Below are positions 16,859-42,380 of a stretch of DNA of 44,970 bases, piece by piece. The position numbers were made by a program, and so were the translations under genes. Position 1 is the stretch's first letter. Each line of letters begins with the position of its first letter. The notes beneath the pieces were generated by a model. The model was not told the DNA's origin. It made no database searches and saw nothing but the letters and a program-made list of their open reading frames with translations. The stretch lies in contig VGZO01000035.1 in NCBI GenBank assembly GCA_016872555.1, positions 1-44,970 of the forward strand. Direction: 5' to 3'. This stretch comes from Planctomycetota bacterium. GTDB lineage: Bacteria; Planctomycetota; Planctomycetia; Pirellulales; UBA1268.

Positions 16859-17131
16859 ATGGGACAGGCGATCGTCGATCCACAGGAGCTGCGGCGCTTC
16901 GCCGCGCGGCTGCGGCACTTCAGCACCGAGGTGATGACGCAGATGCAGACGGTGCAGCGCCAACTCAACGCCCTCGGGGCCACGTGGCGCGACCAGGAGC
17001 ACCAGAAGTTCGCCGAGGAGTTCGAGCAGCAGCTGGCGACCTTCGGCCGGTTCGTCGAGAGCACCGGAGAATACGTCCCCTACCTGATCCGCAAGGCGGA
17101 GCGGGTCGAGGAATACCAGCAGCAGCGCTGA
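16859..17131 (+). CDS. WXG100-like small helical protein 1
   Basis: The protein is 90 aa, predicted as a helical hairpin: helix 1 about 8-40, a turn at GATWRD (Trp43), and helix 2 about 45-88. Size, helical content and a mid-point Trp fit the WXG100/ESX superfamily, whose members are secreted as dimers by type VII-like systems. The canonical W-x-G is W-R-D here. A canonical C-terminal YxxxD/E export signal is not present in that spacing (YLIRKAE is the nearest). GGGAGG precedes the ATG. It is the first gene of a four-gene same-strand set that ends with an FtsK/EccC-like ATPase; that context is the main support for the assignment. Confidence 0.75.
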   Translation: MGQAIVDPQELRRFAARLRHFSTEVMTQMQTVQRQLNALGATWRDQEHQKFAEEFEQQLATFGRFVESTGEYVPYLIRKAERVEEYQQQR

Positions 17132-17168
17132 GCACGCGGAACCGAGCGGCCCACGACGGGGTGACAGG

Positions 17169-17777
17169 ATGTCCGGCCAAGCCGATGTCAAATCGATCGA
17201 CACCCTGGCCTTCGTGAAGGCGGCGGTGGCGTCGTTCGCGCACGAGACGGGCCAGGCGATCTCCGAGGTCGAGCTCGAGGGGCGCCGGGCGATCGAAGAC
17301 CTGACGATGGAGCGGGCCGCGCACTGGAAGGCCGAGGTCCGCCGTGCCGGCGAGGCGGTCAACGAGGCGATCAAGGAGTTGGAGCACTGCCGGGCCTTCA
17401 AGAAGGTCGGCGACGGCCAGCCGTCGTGCATCGAGGAAAAGAAGAAGCTCGACAAGGCGCGGGCGCGGCTGGCGTTCGCCGAGCAGAAGGCCGAGGCGGT
17501 GCGGCGCTGGACGCCGGTCGTCCAGCAGCAGTTCCGCGAGACGTGCGTGAAGCTCGTGCACTTCCGCGAGGTGGTCGACGTCAAGTGCCCCCGCGCGATC
17601 GCGGCGCTCGAGCGGATGCTCAAGGCTCTCGACGCCTACCGCGACGTCTCCGCTCCGCGCACCGGCGCGGCGGCCGGCGGCGGTGGCGGGGCGGCGCCGG
17701 TGACGCGACAGGTCGAGGATCCGCCGCCCGAAGGCGCGCCCCCGGCCGCCGACGCCGAGGGAGCCGTCGCACCATGA
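17169..17777 (+). CDS. Helical 202-aa protein of the WXG100-like operon
   Basis: The protein is 202 aa with no named family that I recognise. Residues 1-160 are almost entirely charged helix (Glu, Lys, Arg, Ala), with two tryptophans (AHWKAEV, VRRWTPV) and three cysteines. The last 40 residues are Gly/Pro/Ala-rich and disordered. The long helical N-terminal part recalls extended members of the WXG100 superfamily, such as the heads of LXG proteins, but no motif proves it. It has no signal peptide or membrane segment. Its stop overlaps the next start (ATGA), so it is coupled to the 77-aa gene. It could be a substrate, a chaperone or a structural partner of the ATPase. Confidence 0.7.
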   Translation: MSGQADVKSIDTLAFVKAAVASFAHETGQAISEVELEGRRAIEDLTMERAAHWKAEVRRAGEAVNEAIKELEHCRAFKKVGDGQPSCIEEKKKLDKARARLAFAEQKAEAVRRWTPVVQQQFRETCVKLVHFREVVDVKCPRAIAALERMLKALDAYRDVSAPRTGAAAGGGGGAAPVTRQVEDPPPEGAPPAADAEGAVAP

Positions 17778-18007
17778 AGCACATCGACCTCTCGAGCGGC
17801 GCTTCGAAGATGTCGCTGGCGCTCAAGCAGCTCGAGATCAAGTGGGACTCCGCGAAGGACACGTGGAACGACGCCACGAGCAAGGCCTTCCACAAGGAGC
17901 ACCTCGAGCCCCTCCGCCCGGACGTCAAGGAGACGCTCGAGGCGATCGGCCGTCTCGCCGAGGTGCTCGCCCGCGCCGCCCGCGACGTCAGCGACGAAGG
18001 CGGCTGA
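17774..18007 (+). CDS. WXG100-like small helical protein 2
   Basis: The protein is 77 aa with two predicted helices (about 11-30 and 33-72) around Trp31. The turn reads W-N-D followed by a Phe, like W-R-D in the first gene of the operon, so the two small proteins probably share an ancestor and may pair as EsxA and EsxB do. It is shorter than the usual 95-100 aa. The start at 17774 overlaps the upstream stop by 4 bp and GAGGGAG lies just before it. No export signal is recognised. The assignment rests on size, helices, the shared motif and the neighbouring ATPase. Confidence 0.65.
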   Translation: MKHIDLSSGASKMSLALKQLEIKWDSAKDTWNDATSKAFHKEHLEPLRPDVKETLEAIGRLAEVLARAARDVSDEGG

Positions 18008-18077
18008 CCGCCGCCACCCGTCGCGCCCGAAGCCGGCCGGTCGGGCGACGGCATCCGGCGCGGCACAGGAGCACGCC

Positions 18078-21000
18078 ATGTCCACCGAGACCGCCGCCAC
18101 TCCGACCGACACGACGCCATCCGCGGCCGCCGCGCCGGCATCGGGAAGCGCCCCCACCACGGCCCCCACGGCCTACGACCAGGCACGCCTGCGAGGAGCG
18201 ATCCAGGCGCTCCGTGACGCTGCCGCCCGGCGTGCCAAGCTCGAGCACGAGATCGTCGCCGAACACGAGCGTGAGACGACGGCGGCGCGCGACGAGGCGA
18301 CGGCCGCGATCGCCGCCACGACCGAGAAGCACCGCCGCGCGATCGCCGCCACGAAGAACGAATACGCCGATATCACGGCCCGCCTCGCCGCCCAGGGGGA
18401 GGCCGACTCGAAGAAGATCGACGAGCAGCGCCGCGCGAAGGTCGCGGCCGTCGAGCGCGCCTGGCAGGAACAGACGACGAAGATCAAGGAGGATCACGAG
18501 TTCGAGCAGGCCTCGGTGAAGGAGGTCTACAAGGAGAAGCGTGGCGATCCGGCGAAGCTGTTCGCCAAGACCGAGCAGGATCTCCAACGGATCGCCGCCC
18601 AACTCGACGAGGCGTTCGCGAAAGGGAAGGAGTTCCTCACGGGCTGCGGCGTGAAGCCCGCGGCGGCCGGTCCCGACGACCGGCCCGTCCCCGAGCGCGA
18701 CGGGATCCTCTCCGAGATCGAGTCGCTCCACGCCGGCGTGATTTCGCGGACGAAGGACCTTCTCGGGCTGGCCGCCGCGAAGACGATGTTCGGTGGGTTG
18801 AAGAAGGATGCCGCCCAGAGGGCCCTCGAGCTGTGGGGGGCCGTCGAGCGCGACGTCGCCCGTGGCCGCGCCCTGCTCCCCGCCGCCCGGGAGTGGCTGC
18901 CGCTGCGGCGCGACGAGCAGGCCCGGGCCCTCGAGGCGAGCGCGCGGAAGCAACTCGCCGATCTCGAGTCACGGGCTGCCAAGGCGATTGCCGACCTGAC
19001 CGCGAAGCGCGACGCCCAACTCGCTGACCTCGGCGAGAAGGTCAAGGCGGCGACGACGACGATCGAGTCGCGCTCGACCGGTGGCCGGGCCGATGCCGAT
19101 ACGCGCTACCCGGCGAAGGTCGCGGCGCTGGAGGAGGCGCTCGCCGCCGAGGTGGCCCGCCTCGAACAGGCGCGCGACGGCCGGTTGGCGGCCGCCGAGA
19201 AGAAACTCGCCGACCGGACCGCCGCCATGACGGCGCAGTGGCGGCAGGCCCGGGTCGACGCCGATGCCGTCTACGCCGCCGCTGGCGCCATCGACACGGC
19301 CGCCTTCCCGGAGTGGTCGGCGCTCGCCGACGGATCGGTTCCGCTGCCACACGACGCTCCGCCCGGGCTGCGCTTCGGCCGGCTCGACCTGTCGCTCGAG
19401 CGCGTGCCCGGCGGCGTCTCGGTCCGGCCCGAGCTCAACGCCTTCGGCCCGGTGGCGTGGACGCAGCCGGCGCTCGTCCCCTTCCCCGACGGCTCGTCGC
19501 TGGTGGTCAAGACCACCGCCGACCAGCGTGAGCCGGCCGGGGCCTTCCTCCAGGCCCTCACCCTGAGGATCGCGGCCGGCGTCCCGGCCGGCCAGACGAG
19601 GTTCACGATCATCGACCCGCTCGGCCTCGGCAAGCACTTCGCCGGGTTCATGCACCTCGCCGACCACGACGAGCTGCTGGTCACGAGCCGGATCTGGACC
19701 GAGCCGACGCAGATCGAGCAGCGCCTCGCCGACATCACCGAGCACATGGAGCTGGTGATCCAGAAGTACCTGCGCAACGAATACGACTCGATTGCCCACT
19801 ACAACGCCGATGCCGAGGTGCCGGAGCCCTACCGGTTCGTCGTCGTCGCCAATTTCCCCGCCAACTTCACCGAGACGAGTGCCCGGCGCCTGGCGAGCAT
19901 CGCCTCCAGCGGCGCCCGCTGCGGCGTGGCGACGATCGTCTCGGTCGACACCAAGCAGCCGTTGCCGGCCAATTTCAGCATGTCGGACATCGAGCAGTAC
20001 GCCACGGTGCTGCGCCTCGAGGACGGGCGCTTCACCTGGAACGACGCCGAGTTCTCGAAGTGGCCCCTGACGGTGGAGTCGGCACCCCCCGACGACGTGT
20101 TCACCGAGATCGTCCAGCGGATCGGCCGGGCCGCCAAGGCGGCCAAGCGCGTCGAGGTGCCGTTCGACCGCGTCGCGCCCCCCGAGGAGGCGTGGTGGAC
20201 CGGCAGCACGGCGCGCGAGATCGACGTCCCGCTCGGCCCGGCCGGGGCCAAGAAGATGCAGCACATGAAGCTCGGCAAGGGGACGAGCCAGCACGTCCTC
20301 ATCGCCGGCAAGACGGGCTCCGGCAAGTCGACGATGATGCACGCCCTGATCACCAACCTGGCGCTGACCTACAGCCCGAACGAGGTGCAGTTCTACCTCA
20401 TCGACTTCAAGAAGGGAGTCGAGTTCAAGGTCTACGACCACTACCGCCTCCCGCATGCGCGCGTGATCGCGATCGAGAGCGAGCGCGAGTTCGGCCTCTC
20501 GGTGCTCGAGCAGCTCGACCGCGAGCTGAAGCGCCGCGGCGACCTGTTCCGCGACCTCGCCGTCCAGGACCTCGCCGGGTTCCGTGCCACCGGCAATCCC
20601 GACCCGATGCCGCGCGTGCTGCTGATCATCGACGAGTTCCAGGAGTTGTTCATCGAGGACGACAAGCTCGCCCAGGATGCCTCGCTGATCCTCGACCGGC
20701 TCGTCCGCCAGGGGCGGGCGTTCGGAATGCACGTGCTGCTCGGATCGCAGACGCTCGGCGGCTCGTACAGCCTGCCGCGGGCGACGATGGGGCAAATGGC
20801 GGTGCGGATCGCGCTGCAGTGCAACGAGGCCGACAGCAGCCTGATCCTCTCCGAAGACAATTCCGCCGCCCGGCTCCTCACCCGCCCCGGCGAGGCGATC
20901 TACAACGACGCCAATGGCATGCTCGCCGGCAACAACCCCTTCCAGGTGGTGTGGCTCGGCGACGAGCGCCGCGAGCGCTACCTGTCGGCGCTGCGGCAGC

Positions 21001-22073
21001 TGGCCGACCGCCGCAGCGACATCCCCGCGCTCCCGCGGCTCGTGTTCGACGGCAACCAGGCCGCCGACCCGGCCGGCAACTCCCAGCTCGCCGAGCTGCT
21101 CGACAAGGGCACCGTCGGTGGCCGGCCCCAGATCGCGCCGGTGGCCTGGCTCGGCGACGCGATCGCGATCAAGGATCCGACCGCAGCGCTCCTCCGGCGC
21201 CAGGGGGGAGCCAACCTGCTCGTCGTCGGCCAGCGCGAGGACCTCGCCGTCAGCCTCCTGGGAATGTCGCTGATGAGCCTCGCGGCGGCCCACGATCCGC
21301 TCCCCGGGGGGCAGCTCGGCCGGACCGCGCGGTTCGTGCTCATCGAGCCGCCGGTCGCCGACGAGAAACCCGACCTCCTCCTCCGCGCGCTGGCCACCAA
21401 CCTCCCCCACGACGTCGAGGCGGTGACGGTGCTCGGTGTCGCCGACGCCTTCGCCGGCCTCGCCGCCGAGGTCAAGCGCCGGCTCGACGAGCAGGTCCTC
21501 GACGGCGAAGCGATCTTCGTCGTCGTCCGCGACCTCGCCCGGTACCGCGAGCTGCGCAAGAGCGACGGCGACTTCGGCTTCTCGTTCGGCGGTGACCAGA
21601 AGGCGGGCCCCGCGCAGAACTTCAACACCGTCCTCAAGGACGGGCCGACCGTCGGGATCCACACGCTGGTGTGGTGCGATTCGCTCACCAACCTGATGCG
21701 GACGTTCGAGCGCGGGGCGCTGAAGGAGTTCGAGCTCCGCGTCCTGTTCCAGATGAGCGCTTCCGACTCGAGCCAGTTGGTCGACAGCCCGTTGGCCAGC
21801 AAGCTCGGGCCGCAACGCGCCCTGTTCATCCACGAGGAGACGGGGACGCTGGAGAAGTTCCGCCCCTACGCGTTCCCGGCCGGTGAGTGGCTCGCCGGTG
21901 TCGCGGCCCGGCTCCGCGCCCGCCCCCAGGGCCGGGCGACCGAGCGCCCGCGTGTGGCCAAGCTCGCCGGCGGCGCGACCGCGGCGGCGAAGCCGGCCGA
22001 CGACGAATTCAACTTCACCAAGTTCCTCGACGACCCATCGCCGGCCGGCGGTGAGCCTCCCGCGGCCGGCTGA
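18078..22073 (+). CDS. FtsK/EccC-like multidomain ATPase with N-terminal coiled coil
   Basis: The protein is 1331 aa. Residues about 30-400 are a long coiled coil rich in Ala, Glu, Lys and Arg, with no transmembrane helix. Three FtsK-like modules then follow. Module 1 (about 430-690) has no P-loop; the equivalent region near 478-490 reads KTTADQREPAG. Module 2 is canonical: Walker A GKTGSGKST at 744-752 (Lys750), Walker B LLIIDE (Asp852), and the FtsK phrase GMHVLLGSQT. Module 3 has GQREDLAV at about 1051-1058 where a P-loop would be. Three tandem modules are the hallmark of EccC/EssC, the motor of type VII secretion, but those carry membrane helices. The two WXG100-like genes upstream support an ESX-like role. 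AGGAG precedes the ATG. A DNA or protein translocase of another kind is the alternative. Confidence 0.85.
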   Translation: MSTETAATPTDTTPSAAAAPASGSAPTTAPTAYDQARLRGAIQALRDAAARRAKLEHEIVAEHERETTAARDEATAAIAATTEKHRRAIAATKNEYADITARLAAQGEADSKKIDEQRRAKVAAVERAWQEQTTKIKEDHEFEQASVKEVYKEKRGDPAKLFAKTEQDLQRIAAQLDEAFAKGKEFLTGCGVKPAAAGPDDRPVPERDGILSEIESLHAGVISRTKDLLGLAAAKTMFGGLKKDAAQRALELWGAVERDVARGRALLPAAREWLPLRRDEQARALEASARKQLADLESRAAKAIADLTAKRDAQLADLGEKVKAATTTIESRSTGGRADADTRYPAKVAALEEALAAEVARLEQARDGRLAAAEKKLADRTAAMTAQWRQARVDADAVYAAAGAIDTAAFPEWSALADGSVPLPHDAPPGLRFGRLDLSLERVPGGVSVRPELNAFGPVAWTQPALVPFPDGSSLVVKTTADQREPAGAFLQALTLRIAAGVPAGQTRFTIIDPLGLGKHFAGFMHLADHDELLVTSRIWTEPTQIEQRLADITEHMELVIQKYLRNEYDSIAHYNADAEVPEPYRFVVVANFPANFTETSARRLASIASSGARCGVATIVSVDTKQPLPANFSMSDIEQYATVLRLEDGRFTWNDAEFSKWPLTVESAPPDDVFTEIVQRIGRAAKAAKRVEVPFDRVAPPEEAWWTGSTAREIDVPLGPAGAKKMQHMKLGKGTSQHVLIAGKTGSGKSTMMHALITNLALTYSPNEVQFYLIDFKKGVEFKVYDHYRLPHARVIAIESEREFGLSVLEQLDRELKRRGDLFRDLAVQDLAGFRATGNPDPMPRVLLIIDEFQELFIEDDKLAQDASLILDRLVRQGRAFGMHVLLGSQTLGGSYSLPRATMGQMAVRIALQCNEADSSLILSEDNSAARLLTRPGEAIYNDANGMLAGNNPFQVVWLGDERRERYLSALRQLADRRSDIPALPRLVFDGNQAADPAGNSQLAELLDKGTVGGRPQIAPVAWLGDAIAIKDPTAALLRRQGGANLLVVGQREDLAVSLLGMSLMSLAAAHDPLPGGQLGRTARFVLIEPPVADEKPDLLLRALATNLPHDVEAVTVLGVADAFAGLAAEVKRRLDEQVLDGEAIFVVVRDLARYRELRKSDGDFGFSFGGDQKAGPAQNFNTVLKDGPTVGIHTLVWCDSLTNLMRTFERGALKEFELRVLFQMSASDSSQLVDSPLASKLGPQRALFIHEETGTLEKFRPYAFPAGEWLAGVAARLRARPQGRATERPRVAKLAGGATAAAKPADDEFNFTKFLDDPSPAGGEPPAAG

Positions 22074-22077
22074 GGGA

Positions 22078-23202
22078 TCAGCGGGGCTTCTCGGCGGGGC
22101 GCCGGCCGATCGGGACATCGATCCGCACCCGCTGGCCGTCGCGCACGAGTTGCACCGGCACCGCGGTGCCGACCGGGGCCCGCGCGGCGAGGAGGAACAG
22201 CGTCCGCTTGTCCGCGACCGGCTTGCCGTCGAAGACGAGGATCACGTCACCGCGCCGGATCCCGGCCGCCGCCGCGGGCGACTGCTCGTCGACCGCCACG
22301 ACGAGCGCCCCTCCCTGCTCGTCGTCGGCGGGATCGTTGAGTTGCACGCCGAGGAATCCACGCTCCACCGGACCGCCATCGAGGATCGCGCGGCACACGT
22401 TCCGGGCCGTGTTGCCGGGGATCGCGAACGCGATCCCCTGGAAATCGGCGCCGACGATCGCGGTGTTGATGCCGACGATCTCGGCGTGGACGTTGACCAG
22501 CGGCCCCCCGGAGCTGCCCCGGTTGACGGCGGCATCGGTCTGGAGGAACTCCTGCCGCGGGTCGTCGAGGACTCCGCGGCGGCCGGTGGCACTGATGATG
22601 CCGTAGGTCAGCGTCCTGTCGAGCCCGAACGGATTGCCGATCGCCCACACCATCTCGCCGACCTCGAGGCGGTCGCTGTCGCCCCATGCCGCGGTCGGCA
22701 GCCCCTCGGCCTCGATCCGGAGCACGGCCAGATCGGTCGCCGGATCGGCGCCGACCAATTCGGCGTCGAAGCGCCGGCCGTCGGCGAGACGGACCTCGAT
22801 CGCCGTCGCCTGGGCGACGACGTGGTAATTGGTGATCACCACGCCGTCGGCTTCGACGATCACACCCGACGCGCTCGACTCGTCCTCGGCAAGCTGCGTG
22901 CGCGGGCCCCACAGCGCGCCGACCTCGTCGGCGACGAGGTGCACCGGGCGGCTGCCGGTGACGTTGACCACCGCCGGCCCGACGAGCCTGGCCAGCGACG
23001 TGAACAGCTTTCCGACCGGAGCCAGCTCCGCCCCGGCGGCGGCATCGCGGATCGCCGCCAGCTCCTCGCGCGTCCGGGCGTATTGGATCCGCCCGACGAA
23101 CGACGGCCAGCAGAGGAGCACGAGGACGGCGACCAGCGCGAGCACGAGCAACGGGGTGCGCAGCGCCTCCAGTCCCGGTGCGGCGGGGGGGCGTGGCGTC
23201 AT
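22078..23202 (-). CDS. Membrane-anchored HtrA/DegP-like serine protease with one PDZ domain
   Basis: The protein is 374 aa. A single membrane helix (about 15-37) anchors it. The trypsin-like domain shows the triad His127 (TNYHVV), Asp157 (ATDLAV) and Ser231 in NRGSSGGPL, where most HtrA proteins have NPGNSGGPL. One PDZ domain follows (about 275-365, RGFLGVQLND). The family degrades or refolds damaged envelope proteins. The ATG overlaps the TGA of cinA (ATGA), so the pair is coupled, and the gene ends 4 bases from the stop of the convergent FtsK-like gene. A link with the WXG100-like system is only positional. Confidence 0.9.
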   Translation of the reverse strand: MTPRPPAAPGLEALRTPLLVLALVAVLVLLCWPSFVGRIQYARTREELAAIRDAAAGAELAPVGKLFTSLARLVGPAVVNVTGSRPVHLVADEVGALWGPRTQLAEDESSASGVIVEADGVVITNYHVVAQATAIEVRLADGRRFDAELVGADPATDLAVLRIEAEGLPTAAWGDSDRLEVGEMVWAIGNPFGLDRTLTYGIISATGRRGVLDDPRQEFLQTDAAVNRGSSGGPLVNVHAEIVGINTAIVGADFQGIAFAIPGNTARNVCRAILDGGPVERGFLGVQLNDPADDEQGGALVVAVDEQSPAAAAGIRRGDVILVFDGKPVADKRTLFLLAARAPVGTAVPVQLVRDGQRVRIDVPIGRRPAEKPR

Positions 23203-25935: not shown

Positions 25936-27246
25936 ATGCAGCGAGTGGTCGTGCTTGGGGTCGTGGCGGCACTGGCCCTGTCCGCGGTCCCCGCTCGGGC
26001 AACCGAGACACGCCGCACGGCGATCGTCCGGGCGATCGAGGCGACCCGCGATTCCGTCGTCAACATCCACGGCCAGAAGCTCGTGCCCGGTTCGGAGGAC
26101 GATGCCACCGCCGAGCTCCGCCGCGTCAACGGCATGGGCACCGGGGTGGTCATCGATGCCCGGGGGTACGTCGCCACCAATTACCACGTCGTCGAGGGGG
26201 TGCGCCGCATCGAGGTGACGCTCGCCTCGGGGCGGACGACGACCGCGACGCTGGTGTCGCACGACCCGCGGACCGACCTGGCGGTGATCAAGATCCCCGC
26301 CGACGGCGGGCCGTTCCCGGTGATCCCGATGGGGACGTCGGCCGACCTGATGATCGGTGAAACGGTGCTCGCCCTCGGCAACGCCTACGGCTACGAGCAC
26401 ACGGTCACGCGCGGCATCATCTCGGCCCTCCACCGCAGCGTCGAAGTCAACCGCACGCAGCGGTACGACGACCTGATCCAGACCGACGCCAGCATCAACC
26501 CGGGCAACTCCGGCGGACCGCTCCTCAACATCGACGGCGAGATGGTGGGGATCAACGTCGCCGTCCGGGCGGGCGCCCAGGGGATCGGATTCGCGATCCC
26601 CGTCGACCGGGCGCTGGAGGTCATCACGGAACTGCTGTCGACCGAGCGCCTCGACCGCACCTGGCACGGATTGGTCACCAGGAGCTGCGGCAGCGAGGGG
26701 GTCCTCGTCGCGGGCCTGCAGCCGGAGAGTCCTGCGGCCGGCGCGGGAATCGTCACCGGTGACGTGATCCGCCGGATCGGTGACATGCCGGTGACCACGC
26801 CGCTCGACGTCGAGCGGGCCCTCCTTGGCCACCGCCCGGGCGAGACGGTTCCGGTCACGGTCGGCCGCGGCGGCGCCGAGACCCGGATCGACCTCGCCCT
26901 CGGGGCGGCGCGTCCGCGCGTGCTCTCCAAGGAGGAGCGCTGCTGGAACGAGCTCGGCCTCAAGGTCGAATTCCAGCCCTCGGGCCGGGTGCAAAAGCTC
27001 CAGTCACGCTACCGGGGTGGGTTGCTCGTGACCGACGTCCGCGACGGCGGCCCGGCGGCCGATCAGGGGATCCGCGTGGGCGACATCCTCGTCGGCCTCC
27101 ACGTCTGGGAGACGATCACGGTCGACAACGTCCTGTACGTGCTCGAGAAAGCGCGTGAGGACAACCTCGGCCAATTGAAGTTCTACGTCCTCCGTGGCCG
27201 CGAGACGCTCTTCGGCCACCTCACCAGCGACACGATGCTGCGGTAG
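25936..27246 (+). CDS. Secreted HtrA-like serine protease with two PDZ domains
   Basis: The protein is 436 aa with a signal peptide (1-22, cleavage after PARA). The trypsin-like domain has the complete triad His84 (TNYHVV), Asp114 (TDLAVI) and Ser192 in the canonical NPGNSGGPL. Two PDZ domains follow, at about 250-335 and 345-430, the second being more divergent. It is a DegP/DegQ-type periplasmic protease-chaperone. The ATG at 25936 gives a normal signal peptide. It is a second HtrA within 4 kb of the minus-strand one; they differ in anchoring and PDZ number, so they are not a recent duplication. The 168 bases upstream hold no clear promoter. Confidence 0.92.
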   Translation: MQRVVVLGVVAALALSAVPARATETRRTAIVRAIEATRDSVVNIHGQKLVPGSEDDATAELRRVNGMGTGVVIDARGYVATNYHVVEGVRRIEVTLASGRTTTATLVSHDPRTDLAVIKIPADGGPFPVIPMGTSADLMIGETVLALGNAYGYEHTVTRGIISALHRSVEVNRTQRYDDLIQTDASINPGNSGGPLLNIDGEMVGINVAVRAGAQGIGFAIPVDRALEVITELLSTERLDRTWHGLVTRSCGSEGVLVAGLQPESPAAGAGIVTGDVIRRIGDMPVTTPLDVERALLGHRPGETVPVTVGRGGAETRIDLALGAARPRVLSKEERCWNELGLKVEFQPSGRVQKLQSRYRGGLLVTDVRDGGPAADQGIRVGDILVGLHVWETITVDNVLYVLEKAREDNLGQLKFYVLRGRETLFGHLTSDTMLR

Positions 27247-38389: not shown

Positions 38390-38459
38390 CGTGAAACCCG
38401 CGGCGTTTGCCACGGTCGCCTGAGTGGACACGGCCTCATTGGGCTTTGTCCACGGACAG
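38390..38459. repeat. Dispersed repeat, copy 2 (inverted relative to copy 1)
   Basis: This 70-bp segment is the imperfect reverse complement of 35829-35899. The hairpin core is kept but imperfect: GTGGACA and the opposing TGTCCAC still pair, with two mismatched or wobble positions and a GCC/GGC extension around a short loop. On the minus strand it begins immediately after the stop codon of the CPBP protease gene (38460), the same relation to a gene end as copy 1. Confidence 0.75.
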
Positions 38460-39287
38460 TCAGCCCTTGACCGGCCCGCCACCGGCGAGGACCAGAGCGA
38501 TGCTGGCGGCGTTGAACAGCCCGTGCAGGACGACGGCCGGCAGAAGCGAACCGGTGCGGAACACGATCCCCCCCAACACCATCCCGAACAGTGCCAGCGG
38601 CACCGGCGCCAGTCCCTGCCCGGCATGGGCGAGGCCGAAGGCCAGCGCCTGGAGGCAGATCGCCGCCCCGGCATCACCGCCGAAGCGCTCGACGAGCCAG
38701 CCCTGCAACACCCGGCGGAAGAGAAACTCCTCGACCAGCGGGGCGACGACCACTGCCGACAGGATCACCAGCGCGATCGCCGCGGGATCTCGATGGGTGG
38801 AGACGTAGTCGATGATCGGGTGGGCATAGGGCTGGATCCGGTCGAGGAGCGTGGCCAGCGCCAGCAGCGGCCACAACACCAGCCCCAAGCCGATCACGGC
38901 GAGCCGCAGGTCGTGCCGCCAGTCGGCCACCGTCATCCCCAGCTCGTCCCACGTCGCCCCGCGCGAGCGCAGGTGCCACAAGCCGACCAGCGCCGCCACC
39001 GTCATCCCGACGATGCTCGCCGCCAAGCGCGACGACAGCGGCGCGTCTTCGGGCACGACCGCGGCGGCGAGCACCTGGGTGACGATCACCGTGGCGAACA
39101 CCGCCGCCACGTCAACGCCGCTCCACCGCGCCGGTGGCGCGATCCGCGCCGCGAGGAGCGGCAGACCGCGACGGAGCCGCGCCGCCAGCGCCCAGCCGAC
39201 GACGAGGCTCGCCAGCGCCGCGGCGACCCAGAGGCCGGCGACGACCGGCGAACCCGCTTGGTCGAGAGGTTGTTCGAGCTGCTGCAT
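38460..39287 (-). CDS. CPBP-family intramembrane metalloprotease
   Basis: The protein is 275 aa with about seven or eight hydrophobic segments. The CPBP (CAAX protease/bacteriocin-processing, ABI) motifs are EE-x3-R (Glu186, Glu187, Arg191 in VEEFLFRR), FGLAHAG (His221) and HGLFNA (His255, Asn259). The family cleaves membrane proteins or peptides; eukaryotic Rce1 is a relative. The substrate is unknown. ATG 39287 is preferred over a TTG at 39293. The stop codon abuts a dispersed hairpin repeat. Confidence 0.9.
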
Positions 39288-39329
39288 GACCAATCCGTGG
39301 CGGGCGCCGGCGCCCGTCGCTCCGTGCTG

Positions 39330-39929
39330 TCAGGGCCCGCGCCGCGGCATGAGCACCGTCGCCGCCCGCGCCAGGTACTCGCCCCCCGACCAGATCGTCG
39401 CCACCACCGCCGCCCAGACGGCGATCGTCGCGAGGGCCGTCGGATCGAAACCACCCCAGGCCGCCGGCCCCATCCGCCGCGCCAGTTCGGCCGCCGCGGC
39501 CAGGCACTGCAGCAGCATCTTCGCCTTTCCCGACCAGCCGGCGGAGAAATCGTGCCCCGAGCGCTCCAGTTCGGCGCGGAGGGCGGTGACGAGCAGCTCG
39601 CGGACCACGACCACGACCGCCATCCACGGGGCGATCGCCGAGCCGTCGCGCCCGGCGAGCAGGATCCACACCCCGCAGACGAGCACCTTGTCGACGAGCG
39701 GATCGGCGATCCGCCCCAGCCGGCTCACCTGGTGGAACGTCCGCGCCCACCAGCCGTCGACCCAGTCGGTCGCGGCGGTGACGACGAACAGCCAGAACGC
39801 CGCTCCCGCCATCCCCGCCTCGATGACCGCGAACAGCGCCAGCGACGCCACGAGCCGCGCGGCGGAGAGGAGGTTGGGAACCGTCCAGACGCGGTCGAGA
39901 TCGTCCGGCGGCGGGGGCGACGACGGCAT
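39330..39929 (-). CDS. pgsA: CDP-diacylglycerol--glycerol-3-phosphate phosphatidyltransferase PgsA
   Basis: The protein is 199 aa with several membrane helices. The CDP-alcohol phosphatidyltransferase motif D-x2-DG-x2-AR-x8-G-x3-D-x3-D is complete: Asp55, Asp58, Gly59, Ala62, Arg63, Gly72, Asp76, Asp80. The short size and N-terminal NLLSAARLV block fit PgsA, which makes phosphatidylglycerol phosphate. Related enzymes (cardiolipin or phosphatidylserine synthase) cannot be fully excluded. It starts 6 bases after the stop of rimO on the same strand, so it is probably cotranscribed with it. Confidence 0.88.
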
Positions 39930-39935
39930 GGCGGC

Positions 39936-41369
39936 TCAGCCGTCGGCGGGGATGCCGGCGAGGTCGTAGCCGGAGGAGGCGACGATCTCGACCGGCAGGA
40001 TCCGCCCCGTGAGCGGCCGGCGCGGCGAGCTTCCCGGGGCCGTCACGTAGACCGTGCAATCGATGTCGGGGGCGTCTCCCTTCGAGCGTCCGATCCAGAC
40101 GTCGTCGCGCTGGCCCGACGGGCCGTCGACGATCACGTCGAGCGTCCGCCCCACCTGCCGGCCGGCATGGTCGTGGGCGATCGAGCGCTGCAGCGCCATC
40201 AGTTCGTCGCGCCGCGCCAGCTTCTCCGCCTCGGGGAGGTGGCCATCGAGCTTCGCCGACGGCGTGTCGGCCTCGAGCGAGTAGGGAAACACGCCGAGCC
40301 GCTCGAACCGCCAGCGCTCGACGAACGCCAACAACTCCTCGAATTGCCCGCGCGTCTCGCCGGGAAACCCGGTGATGAACGTCGTCCGGAGGACGAGGTC
40401 CGGGATTCGCGCTCGGAGGGCACCGAGCAGGTCCTCGATGGCGCCCTTCGTGACGCGCCGCTGCATCCGCTTGAGCACCGGGTCGGCGGCATGCTGGAGC
40501 GGCAGGTCGAGGTAGGGGAGGATCCGGGAGCTGGCCGCGATCCGGTCGACGAGCGCCGGCGTGAAATGGATCGGGTACAGGTACATCAGCCGGATCCACT
40601 CGATCCCGGCGACCCCCTCGAGGGCCCCGAGCAGCTCGGCGAGGCGTGGCTGGCCGTCGATGTCGATGCCGTAGAAGGTCGTGTCCTGGGCGACGATCAC
40701 CAGCTCCTTGACGCCGTCGGCGGCCAGCTCCTCCGCCTCGCGGACGACCGCCTCGATCGGCTTGCTGGCATGCTTGCCGCGCATCCGCGGGATCGAGCAG
40801 AACGTGCAGGTCCGGTCGCAGCCCTCGGAGATCTTCAGGTAGGCGACATGCCGCGGCGTGACGCGGAGCCGGTTGGAGTCGTCGAGGGCCCGGGCCGGCG
40901 CCGGCCGGAACACGCTCCGCTGCTCGCCAAGGCCGCCCACGAGCCGGTCGGCGGTGCGCGCGATCTCGTCGCGCGAGAAGACGCCGATCACGGCGTCCAC
41001 TCCCGGCACCTCGTCGAGGAGCGCCTCGCGCTGCCGCTCGGCGAGGCAGCCGGCCACGACCACGCCGCGCGTGCCGCCGCCGCGCTTGAGATCCACCATC
41101 TCGCGGATCACGCCGTACGACTCCTGGCGCGACGCCTCGAGGAACGCGCAGGTGTTGACGACGACGAGGTCGGCTCCACGCGGCTCCGCGACCAGCCGCC
41201 AGCCGTCGTCGCGGAGCAGCCCGAGCATCCGCTCGGTGTCGACGAGGTTCTTGGGGCAGCCGAGGCTGACGATCGCGTAGGTGCCGCGCGCGGGCCCGGG
41301 GGCGCCGGCGGGGCCGGCGGCGAGCGTCCCTGCCCCTGCCTGCTGCTCGACGATCGGAAGTTGGGTCAT
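39936..41369 (-). CDS. rimO: Ribosomal protein S12 methylthiotransferase RimO
   Basis: The protein is 477 aa. The N-terminal UPF0004 domain carries three cysteines for one [4Fe-4S] cluster (Cys38, Cys74, Cys108). The radical-SAM domain has C-x3-C-x2-C (Cys184, Cys188, Cys191) in [19 protein letters not shown], and a TRAM domain ends the protein. The phrases [15 protein letters not shown] and [12 protein letters not shown] separate RimO from MiaB. It adds a methylthio group to the conserved Asp of ribosomal protein S12. ATG 41369 was preferred to a longer reading. A TATCGT with upstream TG lies only 7 bases before the ATG, so a very short or absent leader is possible. Confidence 0.93.
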
Positions 41370-41516
41370 GGGTCCGACGATACCAGCGCCCGCCGCCGCC
41401 CCGCCAGCGGACCCCGGCAACGCTCACCCGCGACCGCTCTTGGGAACGATCGCCCGAGACGCCATCATGGTGGCCCCGGGTCGCTCGGGCCCTCGCCCCC
41501 TCCGGAACCCCGCGCC

Positions 41517-42380
41517 ATGGACGACGCTCGCCCCCTCGGCAGTCTCGACGAATGGGAGGAGGACCTCCTGCGCCGCTACCCGGAGCCGTCCGGTGCGGTC
41601 GCCGCCAAGCCAGGCGCCGCGTTTCGCGACTACGCCGCCGGCGCGCGGGCGAGCGTGCGCCGGTTCTACGAGCTCAACCACCGTCACCAGACGGTCGACT
41701 TCGTCCGCGCCAAGCGCGGAGAATACCTCGGCCGCGGCAAGATGCGGATGGGGATCTGGGAGGCGATGGAGTACCTCAACCAGCTCGTCGACGACAGCGA
41801 TCCCGACCTCGACCTCCCGCAGATCGAACACCTCCTCCAGACCGCCGAGGCGGTCCGCGCCACCGGCCGCCCCGACTGGTATGTCCTCGCCGGCCTCGTC
41901 CACGACCTCGGCAAGATCCTCTGCATCTGGGGCGAGCCACAGTGGGCCGTGGTCGGCGACACCTTCCCGGTCGGCTGCCGGTTCTCCGAGGCGATCGTGT
42001 TTCCCGAGTTCTTCGCCGCCAACCCCGACTCGGCCCGACCGGAATACCAGACGGAACTGGGCATCTACTCGGAGGGCTGCGGGCTCGACGCGGTCCTCCT
42101 CTCCTGGGGCCACGACGAATACCTCTACCACGTCGTCAAGCCCTACCTCCCCACGCCGGCGCTGGCGATGATCCGCTGGCACTCCTGCTACCCGATCCAC
42201 CGCGAAGGGGCCTACGCGCGGTTCCTCACCGACGGCGACCGCGCCCTGCTCCGCTGGGTGCGCGATTTCAACCAGTTCGACCTGTACACGAAGCGCGACC
42301 AGCGGATGGACGTCGCGGCGCTACGGCCCTACTACGAAGACCTGATCGGCCGCTACTTCCCTCCGAGCCTCGCCTGGTGA
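41517..42380 (+). CDS. miox: myo-Inositol oxygenase (MIOX)
   Basis: The protein is 287 aa, nearly the length of mammalian MIOX (285 aa). All di-iron ligands of this HD-type enzyme can be placed: His105 ([12 protein letters not shown]), His129-Asp130 (GLVHDLGK), His199 (SWGHDEYLY), His222 (IRWHSCYP) and Asp255 (FNQFDLYTK). The C terminus [18 protein letters not shown] is also the family ending. MIOX opens the ring of myo-inositol with oxygen to give D-glucuronate. No other inositol catabolism gene is adjacent. The start is the ATG at 41517; the same frame is open for 3 kb upstream but that part is antisense to other genes. Confidence 0.93.

Follow-up and report, generated by a model that had tools for sequence, protein, structure and literature searches.

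The DNA analysed here, to which we refer as the window, is a stretch of 44,970 nucleotides and corresponds to contig 35 in the assembly of a planctomycete whose genome comprises 4.47 Mb (162 contigs, 98% complete). It carries four genes, named P1 to P4, which the preliminary description had presented as a set lying on one strand with short gaps or an overlap. All four open reading frames were confirmed on the forward strand, with the following features:

16859..17131, + strand: P1, 90 amino acids, HP0062-like WXG100 protein with a WRD motif at W43-R44-D45
17169..17777, + strand: P2, 202 amino acids, long helical hairpin as predicted (residues 8-77 and 88-161), followed by a disordered tail (residues 162-202); no toxin domain
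17774..18007, + strand: P3, 77 amino acids, second WXG100-like protein, with a WND motif
18078..22073, + strand: P4, 1331 amino acids, EccC/EssC-type FtsK-family ATPase
P4 residues ~1-410: coiled coil
18675..18977, + strand: membrane-segment site of P4 (~residues 200-300), bearing here the scar KTMFGGLKK, as located by alignment of orthologues with and without segments
P4 residues 415-688: module 1, degenerate
P4 residues 700-960: module 2, active (Walker motifs)
P4 residues 1000-1284: module 3, degenerate

The intergenic distances P1-P2, P2-P3 and P3-P4 are 37, -4 and 70 bases respectively, the start of P3 lying within the end of P2 (ATGA, 4-base overlap). As GC3 is high (0.91-0.95) and dN/dS is low (0.056, 0.137, 0.043 and 0.182 for the four genes; NG86, against the locus L022 of the same genus), we conclude that the four genes are coding and under purifying selection.

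P1 passes the Pfam cut-off for WXG100 proteins (E = 2.4e-10; 41 bits against 27.3). The best PDB match of a profile built from 26 P1 orthologues was the solved hairpin of HP0062 (3FX7, E = 3e-10), followed by EsxB/EsxA, in agreement with the expectation that P1 is a helical hairpin. W43, R44 and D45 are invariant among these 26 orthologues, forming the W-R-D motif of HP0062; in the family, all 62 members have WxD and none has WxG. P3, as judged from its sequence, is WXG100-like only: its Pfam WXG100 score is below the cut-off (21.2 bits against 27.3; E = 3.4e-4) and its profile comparison with P1 is weak (E = 0.007). Residues W24, W31 and D33 are invariant in 29 P3 orthologues, and WxD, in the form of the WND motif in the window, is present in 67/67 family members. 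The central tryptophan noted initially in the two small proteins was thus found, but the motif around it is not W-x-G, being WRD in P1 and WND in P3.

The AlphaFold model of P2 (pLDDT 85) predicts the expected helical hairpin, its two helices of ~70 residues each being modelled with pLDDT above 90. No known domain was found in P2 with Pfam, and the fold search returned generic coiled coils only, none of them at E 0.001 or better. A single long form was observed among 63 P2 orthologues (L089:1690-2745), in which a C-terminal Imm33-like (immunity-type) domain replaces the disordered tail (Pfam, 1.9e-7). A P2-P3 fusion was considered at another locus (L045) and rejected: because P2 is interrupted after residue 128 and the same frame runs to the start of P3, a frameshift is more likely.

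P4 matches Pfam FtsK_SpoIIIE (E = 2.5e-33) as well as the T7SS EccC/EssC models, the latter below their strict equivalog cut-offs. Among the orthologues compared, the Walker A (GKTGSGKST) and Walker B (IIDEF) motifs are confined to module 2, modules 1 and 3 having lost both. Module 2 matches EccC PDB entries (E = 8.4e-41), profile comparison shows homology between modules 3 and 2 (E = 5e-8), and module 1 gives almost no sequence signal. The three-module FtsK-like ATPase initially proposed is borne out by the AlphaFold model of residues 415-1331 (pLDDT 81), the top Foldseek match of which is the three-ATPase cytoplasmic domain of T. curvata EccC (4nh0, E = 1.1e-28). VIA-align paired modules 2-3 with EccC D2-D3 (Z 22.6) and module 1 with the EccC5 DUF domain (Z 14.6), whereas the sequence of module 2 taken alone was closest to EccC D1 (65 bits, D2 scoring 56.5). 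Because structure and sequence pair the modules differently, P4 can be read either as D1-D2-D3 or as DUF-D1-D2, D3 then being absent. The suggestion that the four genes form a self-contained module related to type VII secretion is supported.

Gene order and co-occurrence in planctomycetes

The order P1-P2-P3-P4 on one strand was found in 59 of the 60 loci in which 1.5 kb or more of sequence precedes P4, including Singulisphaera and Phycisphaerales bins; the four genes are therefore conserved together, as the preliminary description had anticipated. Within the window's family, P4 is present in 22/24 genomes, the two genomes without P4 being 69% and 81% complete. Across the phylum, P1 was detected in 39 of 244 genomes (the window's own counted); P4 is present in all 38 other P1-positive genomes and in none of the four P1-negative genomes checked. 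P1 and P4 lie far apart on long contigs in 10 of these 38 genomes. Seven split genomes were examined: P1-P2-P3 are together in three of them, P1-P2 are together with P3 beside P4 in one, and in the remaining three (G056, G116 and G246) P2 and P3 were not found near P1 or P4. Such co-occurrence of P1 and P4 without linkage is strong evidence that they share a function.

In the window's family, the module is a core, syntenic and vertically kept locus. Chlorite-dismutase-family, HtrA and CinA genes flank it in more than 20 loci of this family. They were considered as functional partners and rejected, as the association is seen within the window's family only and distant loci are devoid of these genes. 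Two HtrA-type proteases (Trypsin_2 and PDZ domains) are encoded near each other in the window (22081-23199 and 25936-27243), and it is only in the window's family that both genes are kept next to the module. Elsewhere in the window, the C-terminal part of a 1318-codon open frame (38424-42377) is a myo-inositol oxygenase domain (E = 9e-106); the remainder has no Pfam match, and the frame as a whole may not be a single gene.

The patchy occurrence in the phylum (39/244), together with the lost anchor described below and a P2 protein without toxin, could point to a mobile T7SS-like element in decay, of which the window's module would be a remnant. However, no variation was seen in the Walker motifs or in the W and D residues, dN/dS is low, and every nearly complete genome sampled from the window's family has P4. 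Purifying selection largely refutes this explanation, to which we attach hardly any probability.

Predicted membrane segments in P4 orthologues, and type VII components

In the type VII systems studied so far, the EccC/EssC motor resides in the membrane, at the centre of the conduit. The P4 protein of the window has no hydrophobic segment (maximum 19-residue KD 1.37). In contrast, 50 of the 67 full-length P4 orthologues have membrane segments, mostly two, as predicted from hydropathy alone (KD 1.7-3.0). The segments are always located at one site in the N-terminal coiled coil (~residues 225-320 in orthologue numbering), and the 17 orthologues without segments are ~50 residues shorter there. 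The notion of a motor without membrane helix thus holds for P4 of the window but not for the family, most planctomycete members of which carry predicted membrane segments; a cytoplasmic location is not supported as a family trait. At least one predicted segment was present in each of the 23 orthologues of this set from outside the window's family, in all further P4 proteins collected across the phylum (L118-L137 and the split loci) and in every deep branch examined, the orthologues outside the window's family being known from genome sequence alone.

In a tree of the ATPase core, from which the segment columns were excluded, the proteins without anchor fall into three groups with four changes of state, at least three of which are forced by supported branches, and a tree in which all 17 form a single clade was rejected (p-AU 2.6e-85). 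The scars differ among the three groups ('KT[MI]FGGLKK', 'AGAGMMNVFGRKK' and 'GGGLTGLFSGNK'). As one protein (L099) has segments inside a no-anchor clade, the changes correspond either to three losses and one regain or to four losses. Because most planctomycete orthologues have predicted segments in the motor, the simplest reading is that the missing anchor reflects a repeated secondary loss, which would have occurred at least three times independently, including in the window's clade. That these changes are losses rather than gains is deduced from the nesting and from the presence of segments in all deep branches, and not from the root, which is poorly determined with an outgroup of saturated branches. 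No copy of the lost segment was found elsewhere in the window's own genome, the search recovering only the coiled coil of P4 itself. In the accessible part of the open-licence literature, we found no description of the anchor in planctomycete orthologues, of its repeated loss or of the family-wide fixed locus.

WXG100 proteins and an EccC-type motor are given as the two parts common to all type VII systems (PMC11217815). Of the other components, described initially as missing from the window, EssB/YukC was found in 0/30 genomes (B. subtilis control positive), and the ubiquitin-like component YukD/EccD was not found in the window's own genome and was found in 1/30 relatives (control positive). 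In the search for EccB, neither the 30 genomes nor any control genome gave a match.

The presence of the two common parts, the predicted membrane segments of P4 relatives and the existence of small one-helix proteins encoded separately beside plasmid motors (Dei_142 and Rps_203, see below) are all compatible with the window's clade also having a genuine secretion system, in which P4 would be docked to the inner membrane by a putative partner, and P1, P3 and P2 would be exported. Against this stand the absences of EssB and YukD/EccD reported above, the lack of a second copy of the lost segment in the genome, the fact that no conserved YxxxD/E secretion signal was found in the family sequences of P1 or P3, and an anchor that has repeatedly been dispensable. 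With EssB found in 0/30 genomes, YukD absent from the own genome and the anchor dropped more than once, it is doubtful that P4 serves classical secretion in the window's clade, and we consider such a secretion system rather unlikely. More likely, P4 of this clade acts in the cytosol or at the membrane surface; the initial proposal of a role other than classical secretion is mildly favoured by the recurrent loss of the anchor.

Relatives on plasmids and in described systems

Outside planctomycetes, a tblastn search of plasmids identified relatives of modules 1-3, which are full-length in Rhodococcus and Deinococcus (~29% identity) but partial in Caballeronia and Helicobacter. These plasmid FtsK proteins have no clear membrane helix, and small proteins encoded near them are recognised by the planctomycete P1 profile (E = 1.5e-23 to 3.5e-8). 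Directly next to FtsK lies a gene for a small coiled-coil protein that has a single membrane helix, at its C-terminus, in Deinococcus (Dei_142, L114:8243-8671) and in Rhodococcus (Rps_203, L117:11448-12059); it is possible that these two proteins are detached anchors.

The plasmid counterparts of P2 are longer helical proteins, some of which have a C-terminal domain. The P2 family profile matches the plasmid proteins weakly, with an E-value of 3e-4 in a tiny set. When compared with heptad-preserving shuffles, its score exceeds all of them for the Rhodococcus (0/418) and Deinococcus (0/500) proteins, and is not above shuffles for the Caballeronia (30/500) and Helicobacter (486/498) proteins. 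Because the shuffle test fails for the latter two, it is plausible, though unproven, in two of the four plasmid cases only, Rhodococcus and Deinococcus, that P2 is a toxin-less relative of the N-terminal carrier domain of effectors.

The plasmid loci differ in their other genes. At the Helicobacter locus (L116:7030-8441), a WXG100-like gene, a gene for a helical WHH-nuclease protein, an SMI1/KNR4-type gene and a small gene accompany FtsK; the HNH/WHH nuclease (Pfam, 1.1e-11) adjoins the SMI1/KNR4 protein, and the set looks like a toxin-immunity pair placed into the module. The Caballeronia locus encodes VWA, PP2C, Ser/Thr kinase and CARF proteins, i.e., the TerY-P set, and TerD or Hsp70/GrpE are found near the Rhodococcus genes. 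BLASTP with the VWA, PP2C, Ser/Thr kinase, CARF and AAA proteins of Caballeronia gave no match in any planctomycete locus, the window included.

These conflict-type surroundings (TerY-P triad, CARF, HNH nuclease) raise the alternative of a DNA-handling or defence module, in which P4 would pump DNA like FtsK/HerA and P1-P3 would serve as sensors or scaffolds, as in DndH, HerA-nuclease and CoCoNuT-type systems. The comparison of structures is compatible with this alternative, as FtsK motor domains and the conjugative TcpA score as high as EccC, and an association with CoCoNuTs is reported in PMC11090510. However, no PADLOC family covers the module, and its assignment to a known defence family was rejected, the PADLOC matches corresponding only to the shared FtsK/HerA ATPase domain. 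Moreover, the locus is core and syntenic in the window's family, without nuclease, modification or conflict-type neighbours, and its dN/dS (0.04-0.18) bears no arms-race signature. We therefore regard a DNA-handling or defence function as improbable.

The preliminary description had presented the architecture as new, yet the kind has already been reported. In a table footnote (number 6) of Zhang 2012 (PMC3482391), planctomycetes are named for a solo WXG protein with a three-module YueA-like ATPase in which only the middle module is active, and these are called 'mobile versions of T7SS'. The window's module resembles what this footnote describes in phylum, in the WXG protein and in the three HerA/FtsK modules with the middle one alone active; it differs by the two further genes P2 and P3 and, in the window's family, by being vertically kept and syntenic instead of mobile. 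The membrane segments of most planctomycete orthologues are not mentioned in the passage concerned. According to Bell 2024 (PMC11090510), which cites Anantharaman 2012 for stand-alone occurrence, the EssC homologue of Type III-A CoCoNuTs has an N-terminal coiled coil, no membrane helix and an active central module only, and is accompanied by a coiled-coil nuclease protein and two WXG100 proteins, one of them lacking the motif. The window's module is similar in the N-terminal coiled coil, the single active, central module, the two WXG100 proteins (one of them atypical) and the coiled-coil protein in the operon, whereas the lack of a membrane helix is shared by P4 of the window but not by most orthologues. 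Unlike the CoCoNuT modules as described there, it has no VWA genes and no McrBC/CoCoNuT genes around it, and its coiled-coil protein is devoid of a nuclease domain. In H. pylori, HP0062 (WRD) and the FtsK/SpoIIIE ATPase HP0066 (PMC4978471, PMC3397514) likewise pair a WRD-motif WXG100 hairpin with an FtsK/SpoIIIE ATPase; HNH/EndoVII-type nuclease genes are listed nearby in a published table, whereas the planctomycete locus has none. We assign the window's module to this HP0062/HP0066 and CoCoNuT-associated kind. With respect to EccC/EssC of T7SSa and T7SSb, the likeness lies in the fold and sequence of the active module and, for most planctomycete orthologues, in the membrane pair preceding the ATPases; in P4 of the window a coiled coil replaces FHA, and no EssB or YukD partner was found.

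Proposed mode of action

The gene content, the co-conservation, the single active module, the EccC-like fold and the predicted segments of relatives, with their loss here, were established by the comparisons above. On balance we favour, by no means with certainty, a stand-alone minimal type VII-like module in which the P4 motor would act on P1, P2 and P3 and from which the membrane hairpin was deleted in the window's clade. By likeness to EccC, P4 would be a hexameric ring motor of the FtsK/EccC type, with the middle module hydrolysing ATP and the outer modules binding partners. Outer modules of EccC bind the EsxB signal peptide (4n1a). The P1 and P3 hairpins may be an adaptor or substrate pair engaged by P4, and P2 may be a carried or scaffolding hairpin, comparable to the N-terminal carrier domain of effectors but without toxin. 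In planctomycetes generally, the motor would sit in the inner membrane through the segments of its coiled coil, in an EssC-like layout (cytosolic domain, membrane hairpin, ATPases), whereas in the window's clade, where the hairpin is deleted, it would be in the cytosol or at the cytosolic face. There, P4 would move or remodel P1, P2 and P3 with no transmembrane conduit. The lack of a conserved YxxxD/E signal in P1 and P3 and of a known partner channel for the diderm envelope counts against this overall reading. Because the hairpin was naturally lost at least three times while the four-gene set is still under purifying selection, we tentatively raise the further possibility that a membrane-independent type VII-type motor with its WXG100 partners constitutes a conserved cytosolic protein-remodelling machine.

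That close relatives keep the same motor and its WXG100 partners, some having membrane segments and others lacking them, suggests that the core function is separable from membrane passage, and provides matched natural pairs in which the action of the motor on WXG100 proteins could be tested. A kind of module described as mobile is, in one planctomycete family, a stable core locus.
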